Source of the DNA: Ilumatobacteraceae bacterium
Lineage (GTDB): Bacteria > Actinomycetota > Acidimicrobiia > Acidimicrobiales > Ilumatobacteraceae
Direction: 5' to 3'
Assembly: GCA_021299715.1 (NCBI GenBank)
Contig: JAJTEL010000004.1
Location: forward strand, 1-64,000
Length of the DNA: 64,000 nucleotides
The notes under the pieces are model-generated. The model was not told the DNA's origin. It searched no databases and was given only the letters and a program-made list of their open reading frames with translations. A program made the translations under genes and the position numbers. Position 1 is the stretch's first letter; every line of letters starts with the position of its first letter. This document shows positions 576 through 39,289 of this stretch, piece by piece.

Positions 576-1694
576 ATGAGCGATTCACATTGGATCAACA
601 CCCCACCCCAAGTTCCTTCCAAACGACCTGTTGGTGCCCGTATTGCGGCACTTGTGCTTGTTCTTGTCATTGCTTTTGGTGGCGGACTCGCCGGCGGTCT
701 CGTTGGGTCGTCCTTGTCGGACACCACAAGTTCGGCTGGTAACTCACCATTAGTCACCGCCGCACCCGTGAAGTCTGGCGACATTGGTGACACCAACGTG
801 GCGAAAGCGGCAGAAGTCATTGCTCCGAGCGTGGTCACCATTGACAGCGTGTCATCCACTGGCGAAGCAGTGGGCACCGGAATCATTGTCACGTCAGATG
901 GCGAAATTCTGACAAACAACCATGTTGTTGAAGGTTCTAAGACTGCGCGTGTTCGTTTGTATGGCTCAACAGCTCCTATTACAGCCGACGTTCTCGCAAC
1001 AGACCCCAGTAACGACCTCGCACTCATCAAACTGCGCAACACCACGGGGTTAGTGGCGGCAACTTTTGCCGATCCAGATTCCATTGCGGTGGGCGACCCC
1101 GTTGTTGCAGTCGGATATGCGCTTGCGCTTGATGGTGGGCCAAGTGTGACATCAGGAATCATTTCTGCACTCAACCGAACATTGCAGTTAGACGATGACA
1201 CATTCTTGAATGCACTTATCCAAACCGACGCTGCAATTTCATCGGGTAACTCTGGCGGACCACTTATCAACATGAATGGTCAAGTTGTTGGTGTGAACAC
1301 CGCTGTTGCAACGGGTGGAATGTCTAGTTCTGCAAACAATATTGGTTTTGCCATCAGCGTCGCAGAAGTTCAGCGAGTGTCAAAGATTCTCAGCGAAATT
1401 GCCAATGGTGGTTCTCGCCGTCAAGGTTTCTTGGGTATCAGTCTCGGAGATCGCACTGACGGTGGCGCTGGGGCAGTGATTGGCGAAGTGGAACCCAACT
1501 CTCCGGCAGACAAAGCTGGTGTGAATGTAAATGACATTGTGCTCACCATTAACGAACAACCCATCGTTGGTGATGAAGCGCTGGTTGCCATTATTCGTGA
1601 CTCGGCTCCAGGTGAGACCATCACCATCGTTGTTGAACGCGACGGAAAGCAAGTCACCTTGAATGCAACGTTGGTTGCGCGTCAACAAGACTAA
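576..1694 (+). CDS. Membrane-anchored HtrA/DegP-family serine protease with PDZ domain
   Basis: A 372-residue trypsin-like protease. Residues about 22-44 form one hydrophobic membrane anchor, so the enzyme should face the outside. The catalytic triad is visible: His116 in LTNNHVV, Asp147 in DPSNDLALIKL and Ser226 in SSGNSGGPL. Residues about 284-370 form a C-terminal PDZ domain (GFLGISLGD, PADKAGVNVNDIV). The family degrades misfolded envelope proteins. The start is the ATG at 576, with no clear Shine-Dalgarno; GATACT lies six bases upstream, so it may be leaderless. It lies between rpsJ and rplC, a foreign position for such a gene. Confidence 0.93.
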   Translation: MSDSHWINTPPQVPSKRPVGARIAALVLVLVIAFGGGLAGGLVGSSLSDTTSSAGNSPLVTAAPVKSGDIGDTNVAKAAEVIAPSVVTIDSVSSTGEAVGTGIIVTSDGEILTNNHVVEGSKTARVRLYGSTAPITADVLATDPSNDLALIKLRNTTGLVAATFADPDSIAVGDPVVAVGYALALDGGPSVTSGIISALNRTLQLDDDTFLNALIQTDAAISSGNSGGPLINMNGQVVGVNTAVATGGMSSSANNIGFAISVAEVQRVSKILSEIANGGSRRQGFLGISLGDRTDGGAGAVIGEVEPNSPADKAGVNVNDIVLTINEQPIVGDEALVAIIRDSAPGETITIVVERDGKQVTLNATLVARQQD

Positions 1695-1697
1695 AAC

Positions 1698-2507
1698 TCA
1701 CACCTCGAGTTGAATTCGAGGAAACCGATCATCATCGAGAATGTCGCCATCAACGAGTCCATTCGGCTCAAACGGTGGCGACGTTTTCCATGGTCGGGTA
1801 ATCCATCGAACATCGTCGCCTACGTATCGATAACTCACAATGCGACGTCTCTCTGGGTGCGAACCTGTACCGGGTGCGCTGTGCAGTGTTCGAAAATGAA
1901 ACGCAACAACATCGCCCGGTTGTGCATCACACACCACCGTGTCGCCGAGTGATTCCAGTTCTTCTTCGGAAGGAAACAGTTCAAAGCCTGCAGCCGCGGC
2001 AACGTACGGAGAGTCGTCGACAAAACGATTGGGTATGAAGCGACGTTGCACAACATGGCTGCCACGGATGCATCGCAATGCAATTGATGTGGGTATTGAA
2101 TCAAGTGGAACCCACAAACTCACGTTGTTCATGCCTTCAACGCCGTAGTACGGGTCGTCATGGTGCCACGGAGTAGGAGTTGCAGTACCCGGTTCTTTCA
2201 CCAAGACATGCTCATGAAAGAAACGTGGTGACTGTGTTCCCATGAGATGACCTGCAATGCGTGGTAACTCACCAGTTAAAGCAGAAGCGGAGAATTCGCC
2301 AATTGTTTTCCAGTTCACATAGTCATCAAAAAAACGACCACCACTTTCTGCCGGTGTGTAATCGTTCGACCATTCACTGGGGTGCGACAAATTCTTCTCC
2401 ACACCGCGTTCAATTGTGGTCAACGTACTGGGGGAGAGAACACCTCTCAGAATGACAACGCCGTCTCGTTCATACGCAGCACGGTCAGCGTTGGACACCA
2501 GTGTCAT
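1698..2507 (-). CDS. Phytanoyl-CoA dioxygenase (PhyH) family protein
   Basis: With the start taken at the internal ATG (2507, giving MTLVSNADRAAYERDG), the protein has 269 residues. The 2-oxoglutarate/Fe(II) oxygenase facial triad is visible: His115-x-Asp117 in TPWHHDDPYYG and a distal His in FHFRTLHSAPG. The N-terminal YERDGVVILRGVLSP is typical of PhyH proteins. The substrate is unknown; relatives hydroxylate acyl-CoAs, lipids or small metabolites. A longer reading frame from 2591 would overlap the divergent hydrolase gene and lacks family similarity at its N terminus, so I rejected it. It converges with the htrA-like gene, three bases apart. Confidence 0.85.
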   Translation of the reverse strand: MTLVSNADRAAYERDGVVILRGVLSPSTLTTIERGVEKNLSHPSEWSNDYTPAESGGRFFDDYVNWKTIGEFSASALTGELPRIAGHLMGTQSPRFFHEHVLVKEPGTATPTPWHHDDPYYGVEGMNNVSLWVPLDSIPTSIALRCIRGSHVVQRRFIPNRFVDDSPYVAAAAGFELFPSEEELESLGDTVVCDAQPGDVVAFHFRTLHSAPGTGSHPERRRIVSYRYVGDDVRWITRPWKTSPPFEPNGLVDGDILDDDRFPRIQLEV

Positions 2508-2558
2508 GCCTTGATGGTAGGGCGCGTTCGCCCGTTCAAACAGGGTCTGATTTAGGCG

Positions 2559-2564
2559 TAGTGT
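2559..2564 (+). promoter_or_regulatory. Candidate leaderless -10 (TAGTGT) for the alpha/beta hydrolase gene
   Basis: TAGTGT ends exactly six bases before the ATG at 2571, and there is no Shine-Dalgarno sequence. The same TANNNT-N6-start spacing recurs at six other genes in the window. The -35 region is not convincing. Confidence 0.55.
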
Positions 2565-2570
2565 GCGGAC

Positions 2571-3770
2571 ATGTTTGAACTTGATGCACACCTTGGTGCT
2601 CAGCGTCCGTTCGGTCTGAATTATTGGCCGCTACCAGAAGACGCTCCTGCGATGGATATCCCACGAGAATCAATTCGCTTGGTGACACCAGACGGTGCGT
2701 TGGTACGCGGAGTTTTGTGGACTCCACCACATGGCAAGTGGAAAACGGCAGTTATCTTGACGCACCCACGTGGTGACTTCAGCGTTCACTATGCGTGTCC
2801 GCTTCTTGCCGCTGCTGGTTACGCGGTGTTGGGCTTTAGTACGCGCTATTTGAATAACGACATCGATTGCCTACATGAAAACTGCATTATCGATGTGAAA
2901 ACTGCACACGATGAAATGATTCGACGAGGCGCAGAGTCGGTTGTGTTGCTGGGGAACTCCGGCGGCGGTTCGCTCATGGCAATGGCCAATGCCGAATTAG
3001 GAATTGGCGACGGTTGGGTCGGCATGGCAGCTCACCCAGGTGAAGGTGTTTTCATGTTGCAGGTCATCGATCCGTCGGTCACCGACGAAGCCGACCCCTT
3101 CAGCCGTGACCCAGAGTTAGACATGTACAACCCGGACAATGGGTGGCGCCCGTGGCCCCAGCCGTCTTCGTACGACCCAGCATGGGTGGCGAAATATCGG
3201 ATGGCCCAGCGAGACCGGGTGGCTCGCATCGATGACGTGGCCAAACAGTCCATCGCCGATTCAGAGAATGCTGGTGAACAGCTGAAGGGAATTCACAAAG
3301 ACACAAACTTGGCGTCGTGGAGAGATCTGCGGGCCCGGCGGGTCTTTGCCAAGTACCTCACCATCTACCGAACATTGGCTGACCCTGCCTATTTAGACCT
3401 CTCTATCGACCCAGATGACCGTCCAATGGGGTCACTTTTTGCTTTTCCGGACCCTTTTGAGGCCAATTATGGCCGTGGAGGGCTTGCCCGGACCATGACG
3501 GCCCGCGGCTGGCTGAGTACCTGGTCGGGGTTGTCTAGCCACGCAAAACTGGCCGACACCATGCCACAGGTGACTGTTCCCACCTTGTTGGTGCACCCAA
3601 CGGGTGATACCGAGATTCGGGTCTGGCAGGCGAAAGAGATTGTGCAGGCTGCCAGGGCCGCCGACGTGACCTACCGTGAGATGAAGGGCGCCCCCCACTA
3701 TTTAGAGGGGCACCGGGTAGAGGCCATGGCCGCAGTAGCCGAATGGATTGCTGAGCGTTTCCCCCGCTAG
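2571..3770 (+). CDS. Alpha/beta hydrolase family protein
   Basis: A 399-residue protein with an alpha/beta hydrolase layout. The N-terminal strand and oxyanion region read VILTHPRGDF. The nucleophile elbow is GNSGG with Ser130. A probable acid is Asp346 in HPTGDTEIRVWQ, and the base is probably His376 in GAPHYLEGH. Between about residues 150 and 320 there is a long insertion, probably a lid. No signal peptide is visible. The substrate cannot be named. It is divergent from the PhyH gene and sits in the block that separates rpsJ from rplC. Confidence 0.8.
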   Translation: MFELDAHLGAQRPFGLNYWPLPEDAPAMDIPRESIRLVTPDGALVRGVLWTPPHGKWKTAVILTHPRGDFSVHYACPLLAAAGYAVLGFSTRYLNNDIDCLHENCIIDVKTAHDEMIRRGAESVVLLGNSGGGSLMAMANAELGIGDGWVGMAAHPGEGVFMLQVIDPSVTDEADPFSRDPELDMYNPDNGWRPWPQPSSYDPAWVAKYRMAQRDRVARIDDVAKQSIADSENAGEQLKGIHKDTNLASWRDLRARRVFAKYLTIYRTLADPAYLDLSIDPDDRPMGSLFAFPDPFEANYGRGGLARTMTARGWLSTWSGLSSHAKLADTMPQVTVPTLLVHPTGDTEIRVWQAKEIVQAARAADVTYREMKGAPHYLEGHRVEAMAAVAEWIAERFPR

Positions 3771-3820
3771 CCAGCCCTCATTGGCACTCGCAAATAGTCC
3801 AAATACCCCGCCTGCACCCT

Positions 3821-3849
3821 TTGTGGTCGGGGGAATCCGCCGATAGCGT
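3821..3849 (+). promoter_or_regulatory. Candidate promoter of the rplC operon
   Basis: TTGTGG, 17 bases, TAGCGT, 192 bases before rplC. The CCGATAGC context is shared with the infA promoter at 15302-15330, where CCGATAGCAT is found at the same place. It would give a 5' leader of about 185 bases. Confidence 0.55.
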
Positions 3850-3895
3850 TCCTACTCCGTGCGATTCGGGCCTCGGCTCGAAAAGCTAGATCGAT

Positions 3896-4006
3896 CGTCG
3901 AAACACAATCGACGTCCGTGAAGGCCTCGTTGCAGAAATGCAAAAAGGAACCACACGGCAAAACCCAGACAGGTGCTCCGTCAACAGAAATGTTGTCGGA
4001 GCATTT
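3896..4006 (+). promoter_or_regulatory. Structured 5' leader of the rplC operon
   Basis: Two hairpins are visible. The first is a 6-bp CGTCGA/TCGACG stem with a 7-base loop (3896-3914). The second, at 3974-4003, is TGCTCCG, T, CAACA, GAAA loop, TGTTG, T, CGGAGCA, and can be extended outward by an A-T and two G-U pairs (3971-4006). There is no real T tract after it. Ribosomal-protein operons are often autoregulated through such leaders, so a binding site for a product such as L4 is plausible, but it does not match a leader I recognise. Confidence 0.55.
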
Positions 4007-4040
4007 GCGTGAATAACCAACGAGAAAAAGGGTTGCCGCC

Positions 4041-4679
4041 ATGGCACAAAAAGCGATCGTCGGCGAGAAAGTCGGCATGACACAGGTGTGGGGAGATGAC
4101 CAACGCGTCATCCCCGTCACAGTTCTGCGCGTCGAGCCGGTGCGCGTCGTTCAAGTCAAAACAAATGACCGCGACGGGTACACCGCTCTGCAAGTTACAT
4201 ACGGACACAAAGCCGCCAGCAAATTGAGCAAGCCCGAACAGGGTCACTTCGCTGCAGCAAGTGTCGAAGCAGGTCGACGTCTTGTCGAACTTCGCCTCGA
4301 CTCTGTTGATGGTTTTGAAGTCGGACAAGAACTCGGTGCAGACGTTCTCACAGCAGGCGAAAAAGTAGATGTCACCGCCGTTAGTCGCGGTAAAGGTTTC
4401 GCAGGTGGAATGAAGCGTCACAACTTCAATGGCCAAGGCGCAAGCCACGGTAACCACAAGCACCACCGTGCACCAGGTTCTATCGGTTCATGTTCATTCC
4501 CCGGACGCGTGTTCAAGGGTCTGCGCATGGCTGGTCACATGGGCAACGAGCAGGTCACCACTTTGAATCTTGAAATTGTGCAAGCAGATCCAGAACGCGG
4601 TCTTTTGCTTGTCAAGGGTTCAGTTCCAGGTCCAAACGGTGGCGTTGTCATCGTGCGTAATGCAGTAAAGGCGAAGTGA
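4041..4679 (+). CDS. rplC: 50S ribosomal protein L3
   Basis: A 212-residue L3 starting MAQKAIVGEKVGMTQVW. The extended loop segment GMKRHNFNGQGASHGNHKHH reaches toward the peptidyl transferase centre in known ribosomes, and the fold is completed by GSCSFPGRVFKGLRMAGHMG. L3 is a primary assembly protein of the 50S subunit. The ATG follows AAAAAGGG at 9-base spacing. It is the first gene of the restarted S10 operon. Confidence 0.97.
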   Translation: MAQKAIVGEKVGMTQVWGDDQRVIPVTVLRVEPVRVVQVKTNDRDGYTALQVTYGHKAASKLSKPEQGHFAAASVEAGRRLVELRLDSVDGFEVGQELGADVLTAGEKVDVTAVSRGKGFAGGMKRHNFNGQGASHGNHKHHRAPGSIGSCSFPGRVFKGLRMAGHMGNEQVTTLNLEIVQADPERGLLLVKGSVPGPNGGVVIVRNAVKAK

Positions 4680-4684
4680 TTCTC

Positions 4685-5305
4685 ATGGCATCTATCGCAT
4701 TGAAGAACGCATCAGGCAAGGCCGCAGGAAACATTGAAGTTGCAGACGACTTGTTCGCAGTGCAACCAAACGTTCCTGTCATGCACCAAGTTGTCAAGGC
4801 ACAACTTGCAAACCGTCGCTCCGGAACATCTGCAACGAAGACTCGTGCAGAAGTTGCTGGTACCGGTAAGAAGCCTTTCAACCAGAAGGGAACTGGTGGC
4901 GCTCGTCAGGGTTCCATGCAGGCACCTCACTACACCGGTGGTGGTATTGCGCACGGCCCACAGCCACGCAGCTACGCACAACGCACACCTCGCAAAATGG
5001 TTCGTCTTGCGCTTGCATCTGCATTGTCAGATCGCAACAGCGAAGGACGTGTTGTTGTTCTCGATTCTTGGGGTTTTGCAACTCCAAGCACCAAGGCAGC
5101 AATCAAGACTCTCGAAGCAATTGGTGCAACCGGAAAAGTTCTCGTTGTCGTTACTCCAAACGAAGAGAACGCAATCAAGAGCTTCCGCAATCTTCCCGAC
5201 GTTCATCTTCTCCTTGTCGGTGACCTGAACGCATACGACGTGCTCTGCAATGACTGGATTGTGTTCTCACAAGACAGCCTTCCCGGAACAAAGGACGCGA
5301 AGTAA
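4685..5305 (+). CDS. rplD: 50S ribosomal protein L4
   Basis: A 206-residue protein from the ATG at 4685 ([12 protein letters not shown]). The L4 core is clear: [24 protein letters not shown], then the exit-tunnel loop with [19 protein letters not shown], then the C-terminal Rossmann-like half. A GTG at 4676 overlapping the rplC stop would add three residues and is an alternative start. In E. coli L4 is the autoregulator of its operon, which matters for the structured rplC leader. Confidence 0.95.
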
Positions 5306-39124: not shown

Positions 39125-39131
39125 GTTGTGT

Positions 39132-39254
39132 CCTTGCTCCCATCCGGACTCTTACCGTCGGCCTCAGAATTTCACTGAGTCGGCCCCACAGCCGAAGCCG
39201 TGGGGTTCGCGGGCTATAACCGCCGGTCGGGACTTTCACCCAAACCCTGCAAGG
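39132..39254 (-). ncRNA. FMN riboswitch (RFN element)
   Basis: Read on the minus strand, the conserved blocks appear in order: GGGTGAAAGTCCCGACCGGC, GGTTATAGCCCGCGA, a variable hairpin (CCCCACGGC with GCTGTGGGG), GACTCAGTGAAATTCTGAG, CCGACGGTAAGAGTCCGGAT, GGGAG. P1 is CCTTGC (39249-39254) with GCAAGG (39132-39137). The 3' strand of P1 holds AAGGA seven bases before the ribD ATG, so ligand binding could hide the ribosome binding site directly. Confidence 0.97.
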
Positions 39255-39289
39255 GGTGTTTTTGCTGAACGGGTTGCCCAGCACCCGTA

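Follow-up and report, generated by a model that had tools for sequence, protein, structure and literature searches.

The first gene of the S10 operon in E. coli is rpsJ. The E. coli S10 leader is described as regulating from the operon 5´ end by L4-dependent attenuation, with a Rho-independent terminator, as well as by translational repression; only some of the gamma-proteobacteria have it (PMC10931766). Further systems that invite comparison come from a 2020 survey of ribosomal leaders, whose table contains no actinobacterial rplC, L3, L4 or S10 leader (PMC7247131). An L4 leader candidate from Archaeoglobi, rated borderline there, is predicted before rplC, rplD, rplW and rplB (Eckert/Weinberg 2020, PMC7247131); it shares its downstream gene set with the element described here but is archaeal, and the likeness is drawn from the table description alone. 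The actinobacterial L31 and L17 leaders in the same survey are covariation-supported and lie before ribosomal-protein genes, but these are different genes, and the Firmicutes S10 leader, from a different phylum, is alike by name alone (PMC7247131). In the literature covered here, control of the largest ribosomal-protein cluster appears little described in actinobacteria.

We analyzed a 64,000 nt stretch of DNA (the window) from an Ilumatobacteraceae bacterium, to which all coordinates refer unless a locus is named. Like the E. coli S10 leader, the element that we describe is a structured leader before S10-operon genes, with L4 encoded just downstream and a hairpin followed by a possible pause tail; unlike the E. 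coli leader, it precedes rplC rather than rpsJ, lacks a U tract and is without a 23S-like site that we could find. The gene calls for S10 (rpsJ, 127-441), L3 and L4 were verified, and rpsJ ends about 3.6 kb upstream. The gap separating rpsJ from rplC contains, at 576-3770, a trypsin-like/PDZ (HtrA-type) protease gene and an alpha/beta hydrolase-like gene, together with an oppositely oriented gene for a PhyH-family dioxygenase; the protease or the hydrolase is frequent in this gap in related genomes. The features of the locus are:

3821-3849, + strand: promoter-like site, consisting of TTGTGG (3821-3826), a 17 nt spacer and TAGCGT (3844-3849), with a predicted start near 3857
3908-4016, + strand: whole conserved leader RNA element, matched by models R1 (86.7 bits, E 2.5e-27) and R2 (73.6 bits)
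3914-3920, + strand: P1 5´ strand, U3915-G3920 paired with G3958 to C3954 and with A3960
3924-3951, + strand: P1b, in which G3924-C3951, C3925-G3948 and C3926-G3947 close a variable hairpin, with A3949 and A3950 bulged
3954-3960, + strand: 3´ side of P1, in which C3959 is bulged (C in 76 of 77 sequences)
3961-3969, + strand: conserved linker, of which 3962-3966 (AACCC) is, for this genome and its near relatives, the predicted partner of the Shine-Dalgarno region
3970-4007, + strand: P2, with a GCUCCG/CGGAGC core, a U-U mismatch, an upper stem and a GAAA loop
4004-4012, + strand: conserved single-stranded tail UUUGCGUGA, which fits the elemental pause consensus in 68 of 77 sequences
4025-4034, + strand: Shine-Dalgarno region AAAAAGGGUU, of which 4030-4034 forms the predicted helix P3 with 3962-3966
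4041-4679, + strand: rplC (L3; PF00297, E 4.4e-15), first gene of the presumed regulated operon
4676-5305, + strand: rplD (L4; PF00573, E 7e-63), encoding the leading candidate ligand

A first-pass annotation of this DNA had pointed to a single hairpin at 3971-4006. Inspection and folding of the window located the hairpin there: the 7 bp stem noted earlier corresponds to 3974-3980/3997-4003 and can be extended to 11 bp (3970-3980/3997-4007), the mismatch is U-U (3981/3996), and a 5 bp stem (3982-3986/3991-3995) then carries the GAAA loop (3987-3990). Folded alone, the 36 nt hairpin reached -21.3 kcal/mol compared to -5.85 on average for shuffled sequences (z -6.08), none of 200 shuffles matched its stability, and it forms the longest inverted repeat of 3771-4060, with 13 nt arms that are 92% complementary. 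The hairpin is real but makes up no more than the 3´ half (P2) of an RNA of about 109 nt (3908-4016), which has a fold z of -5.75 and was equaled by 0 of 200 shuffles. In the rplC upstream regions of relatives, the shared parts occur in the order GANGUC, P1, internal loop, bulged C, linker, P2 and tail. The P1 stem is CCGUG/CACGG in the window, where the five pairs C3916-G3920 have probabilities of 0.79-0.88 in the predicted fold. Among the relatives, an internal loop of the form G-C-C ... G-G-N-A-C surrounds the variable hairpin, the linker resembles GCACAACC and the tail resembles (A/G)UUUGCGUGA. The terminal hairpin of P1b (3930-3943) is likewise GAAA-capped. We also noted a small extra hairpin, CGUCGA/UCGACG, at 3896-3914, just before and overlapping the element; by eye, compensated versions (UCAAU/AUUGA) are present in some relatives, and the hairpin is absent in others.

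Covarying pairs in the rplC upstream regions of relatives had been suggested as the means to check the hairpin, and compensatory changes were abundant. In a structure-blind MAFFT alignment (A1) of 32 leaders, taken from 44 distinct leaders (50 gathered in all) and with L033 shortened by 12 bases at the 5´ end, 94.9% of cells were paired, and the covariation score was 0.320 compared to 0.136 for shuffled alignments and 0.024-0.088 for slid structures. In a second alignment (A2) of 77 non-redundant leaders, 95.2% of cells were paired, 14 of the 21 pairs had changed on both sides, and double-change cells numbered 214 compared to 65.6 in shuffles; A2 was aligned to the structure of the model, so its statistics lean towards that structure, while A1 was not so fitted. 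A2 was drawn from 117 unique leaders, 78 of which passed an 86% identity filter, with L044 omitted as incomplete. Under a tree-aware null, 7 of the 21 A2 pairs were significant at E<=0.05, this null being a simplified version of our own with the tree taken from the same alignment, 25 simulations, and removal of columns in which gaps make up half or more. P1 accounts for five of the significant pairs (columns 9 to 13); the remaining two are a P1b pair (column 20) and the pair that flanks the P2 core (column 120). At E<=0.05, the tree-aware test of the 77-sequence alignment singled out no column pair outside the structure; the best such pair, columns 15-92 (E 0.12), would lengthen P1.

The individual stems differ in how they are conserved. 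Both-side changes were seen among the 77 sequences for all six P1 pairs. In P1b, G17-C89 is kept in 76 of 77 sequences, A88 and C89 are present in 77 of 77, and pairs further up covary. The P2 core is identical in 76 of 77 sequences, the exception having one G-U at the first pair. Given this near invariance, the core pairs alone are uninformative for or against pairing, and the core appears from the alignment to be conserved at the sequence level, beyond pairing alone. The pair flanking the core, in turn, has changed on both sides in 34 of 77 sequences (tree-aware E 0.00). The U-U mismatch and GNRA loop of P2 are genus-level rather than class-wide traits; the loop in the genus was GAAA, GCGA or GTGA in 34 of 34 pattern matches, a count that includes repeat fetches of the same genomes. 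Among relatives, the upper stem and loop of P2 vary widely in length around a fixed core, favoring an RNA over a DNA operator. Although GCTCCG/CGGAGC is itself an inverted repeat, as would be expected of an operator or a repetitive element acting at the DNA level, the spacing of the arms varies widely while the stems covary and there is as a rule one copy per genome, and we give this largely refuted explanation almost no credence. It is nearly certain that 3908-4016 is a conserved structured leader RNA specific to rplC. As read from the aligned sequences, the RNA is built of two domains, P1, whose bulged internal loop is invariant, and P2, whose GCUCCG/CGGAGC core is invariant, together with a conserved linker and tail, and its position ahead of rplC is fixed.

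Of 61 relatives searched, 52 gave a match to the element, directly before rplC, and RplC was detected in these 52 and in no others. The other nine of the 61 gave neither an element nor an RplC match, presumably because the contig is absent from these assemblies. Named rplC loci carried the element in 78 of 80 cases, with no more than 76 and 70 nt of upstream sequence available in the two exceptions, and rplC was downstream of the element in 42 of 42 class loci examined. Most of the named relatives carry the titles Ilumatobacteraceae, Acidimicrobiaceae, acIV or Actinomycetota, and many are from lakes. Within Acidimicrobiia, matches were obtained in 86 of 198 genomes with R1 and 181 of 395 with R2, using strict filters that miss some carriers (L188 was missed in the 198-genome search and scored 45.7 bits with filters off). 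In phylum samples, 21 of 26 genomes hit by R1 (296 searched) and 30 of 31 hit by R2 (396 searched) are inside Acidimicrobiia, and there was no credible match outside the class in these samples of 296 and 396 genomes. The element is as a rule single copy per genome; G027, with two rplC contigs, has two elements, an additional antisense hit was seen in G043, and in G044 the hits fall on two contigs, both of which break off at the locus.

Several weaker matches deserve mention. A second target gene was considered and rejected: the five R1 hits outside the class are weak, and their loci (1.9-3.1 kb) showed no rplC, rpsJ or two other tested window genes. The sole R2 match outside the class (L218) aligns as a terminator-like hairpin, and weak extra hits were obtained for L216 (24.4 bits) and for L217, which has no R2 match at E<=0.5. 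Inside the class, L215 (1760-1852, - strand) has a terminator-like hairpin that resembles P2 plus tail, is followed by UUUUGCGUUU and overlaps the 3´ part of a cold-shock-like ORF. The carrier L036 (G035) matched with only 33.9 bits; P1 is kept, and the GCUCCG/CGGAGC P2 is replaced by other stems. Some public records (L066, L068, L072, L085 and L125, and also L101 and L111-L113) are titled as 'Bifidobacterium breve' or 'Ferrithrix thermotolerans' MAGs and carry an RplC 80-92% identical to that of the window genome; the 'Bifidobacterium breve' titles particularly look wrong.

The earlier reading had also held that rplC would need its own control once parted from rpsJ, and this fits the distribution of carriers and non-carriers. 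Among 117 distinct carrier leaders, 39 are preceded on the same strand by rpsJ at a distance of 169-2353 nt, 68 have no rpsJ in the at least 1300 nt available, and 10 were too short. For non-carriers, by contrast, rpsJ was within 107 nt of rplC in 22 of 24 genomes with RplC and no listed match, the sample being 26 genomes chosen by hand, and so non-random, from those listed (two gave no RplC). Of the two exceptions, L188 (gap 627) proved to be a carrier, and L189 in G074 (gap 182) retains no more than a weak match resembling P1 (12.3 bits, E 0.075), with no P2 of the element's type, perhaps representing a decaying or intermediate form. The element thus co-occurs with rpsJ-rplC separation and accompanies an rplC standing first in a unit of its own. 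In 117 of 119 carrier loci, rplD is next after rplC on the same strand by our gap rule, the remaining two gaps being 132 and 143 nt. Carriers and non-carriers of the same class that differ in rpsJ-rplC linkage provide a natural case of an operon cut with a new regulatory RNA at the new front.

Upstream of the element, the motif G[AG]TAGN[GC]T was found in the sense direction in 29 of 76 leaders compared to 1.3 expected from Markov shuffles, and 22 of the 29 motif-bearing leaders have TTG 16-20 nt before it. Variants such as GCTAGTNT occur in other lineages and are outside the strict-pattern count. The promoter-like site was not picked up by a generic sigma-70 scan, which gave no site, so the argument for it is one of conservation. 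The site predicts a leader of about 184 nt, in agreement with the approximately 185 bases first proposed, and the start suggested by the sequence is upstream of the element rather than downstream of 4006, where it would have spoken against the original proposal; the element would thus be inside the transcribed 5´ UTR. The distance from the motif to the element ranges from 10 to 85 nt. Where the promoter-like site ends 10 nt before the element, as in some leaders, the element would be at the mRNA 5´ end, as might suit a non-regulatory 5´ stabilizer or an RNase processing site that protects the long ribosomal-protein mRNA. We consider such a role improbable, as the invariant unpaired residues (bulge A88, C98, linker and tail) exceed what it would need, and regard the element as very likely cis-regulatory for the rplC operon.

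The tail is conserved without a pairing partner; pairing with the P1 3´ strand was assessed by eye and rejected, as it fits part of the family and fails in most of the order. The elemental pause consensus is G-10, G-2, Y-1, G+1, and the fit of 68 of 77 tails, together with their conservation in the unpaired state, raises the alternative that P2 and the GCGUG tail stall polymerase as an attenuator or pause device, with a P1-bound protein or NusA setting read-through, as the E. coli S10 leader does at the level of transcription. The weak off-locus model hits, which are terminator-like hairpins followed by UUUUGCGUUU, are in line with this. However, a protein-binding tail would likewise be conserved, the U tract is not conserved, and a scan found no terminator-like site on the + strand. 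The tail bears out the earlier remark that a T tract is absent, as 70 of 77 relatives have 2 to 4 T in its first 8 bases, and the lack of a conserved U run argues against an ordinary (intrinsic) terminator. All told, we think a dedicated pause device unlikely.

Feedback by a protein of the operon would be the more probable mode of control on our assessment. L4 is the tentative first choice for the regulatory protein, falling short of an even chance; it is favored because L4 controls the S10 operon in E. coli (PMC10931766). L3, a candidate because it is encoded by the first gene, seems a doubtful one. Compared to one acidimicrobial rRNA operon (L212), the conserved blocks matched 23S and 16S no better than a Markov null (best-hit null fractions 0.10-0.93), and R1 run over rRNA loci gave only noise in the L212 rRNA. 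Two local likenesses were set aside. The words GGAACC and GCGTGA neighbor each other in domain I of 23S (L212 1969-1990), not far from the E. coli L4 binding region, but the 23S GGAACC forms the 5´ side of a hairpin whereas the leader differs in this respect, and mimicry is therefore not claimed. A likeness to the L3/sarcin-ricin stem failed, as acidimicrobial 23S has GTCCC there, not GCTCC.

The missing rRNA-like site is also what might be expected if the regulator were not an operon protein but an assembly factor, another RNA-binding protein or a growth-rate-sensing small molecule, and the highly invariant internal loop and P2 core do resemble a specific receptor. This possibility appears unlikely to us, given that all strong matches examined are at rplC only and that ribosomal-protein leaders with known ligands are mostly autogenous (PMC10931766, PMC7247131).

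The unconstrained minimum-energy fold of 3857-4070 (-77.0 kcal/mol) contains P1, P2 and P3, the last formed by AACCC (3962-3966) with GGGUU (4030-4034) at pair probabilities of 0.51-0.87, and in this predicted fold the ribosome-binding site would be hidden. A class-wide Shine-Dalgarno switch was rejected: P3-like pairing exceeded 0.5 in 19 of the 69 leaders whose RplC is at least 75% identical and in 4 of the 48 below that level. As P3-like pairing is lineage-limited, no single output mechanism is conserved. Beyond near relatives, the element often sits close to the start codon. With the receptor-like part general and P3 not, a protein-binding leader with lineage-specific output is favored.

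We thus prefer, as a reasonably probable reading, that 3908-4016 is a cis-acting leader controlling an rplC-rplD-rplW-rplB... operon that is split from rpsJ, has its own promoter and is repressed by an operon protein. When in excess over rRNA, this protein would bind P1, the linker and P2, leading to repression of the operon. In this genome and near relatives, the output would be translational, with binding stabilizing the linker AACCC/GGGUU fold at the ribosome-binding site. Elsewhere in the class, ribosome occlusion or transcriptional pausing at the GCGUG tail would be likelier, since the element is often near the start codon. Also possible, at low probability, is a new RNA family found only in Acidimicrobiia that arose with the S10 split, supplies the truncated rplC operon with feedback control of its own and joins a protein receptor (P1, linker and P2) to a pause site for RNA polymerase, with a lineage-swapped output and a ligand site unlike any known rRNA site. 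The pause site would then be the GCGUG tail, and Shine-Dalgarno sequestration would be the output in the window genus, with other means used elsewhere.

The element has two marks of a ribosomal-protein leader, a constant position upstream of a ribosomal-protein gene and a covariation-supported structure, and none of those of an E. coli-type S10/L4 leader (location upstream of rpsJ, a U tract and resemblance to the 23S L4 site). Rfam 15 yielded no family reaching its gathering score at the leader; at a relaxed threshold, the leader gave five sub-threshold matches (E 1.2-6.9). Nine other loci gave no match. Full-text searches, which covered mainly open-access journal papers, brought up no description of the element. 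The best reading is a new family among ribosomal-protein leader RNAs, for a split S10 operon. It gives this cluster a well-supported leader RNA, present in many families of an aquatic lineage that is mostly uncultured, and allows the direct question of whether L4 control evolved again independently. The sole Rfam match in the window is elsewhere, an FMN riboswitch aptamer at 39128-39258 on the - strand (96.5 bits).
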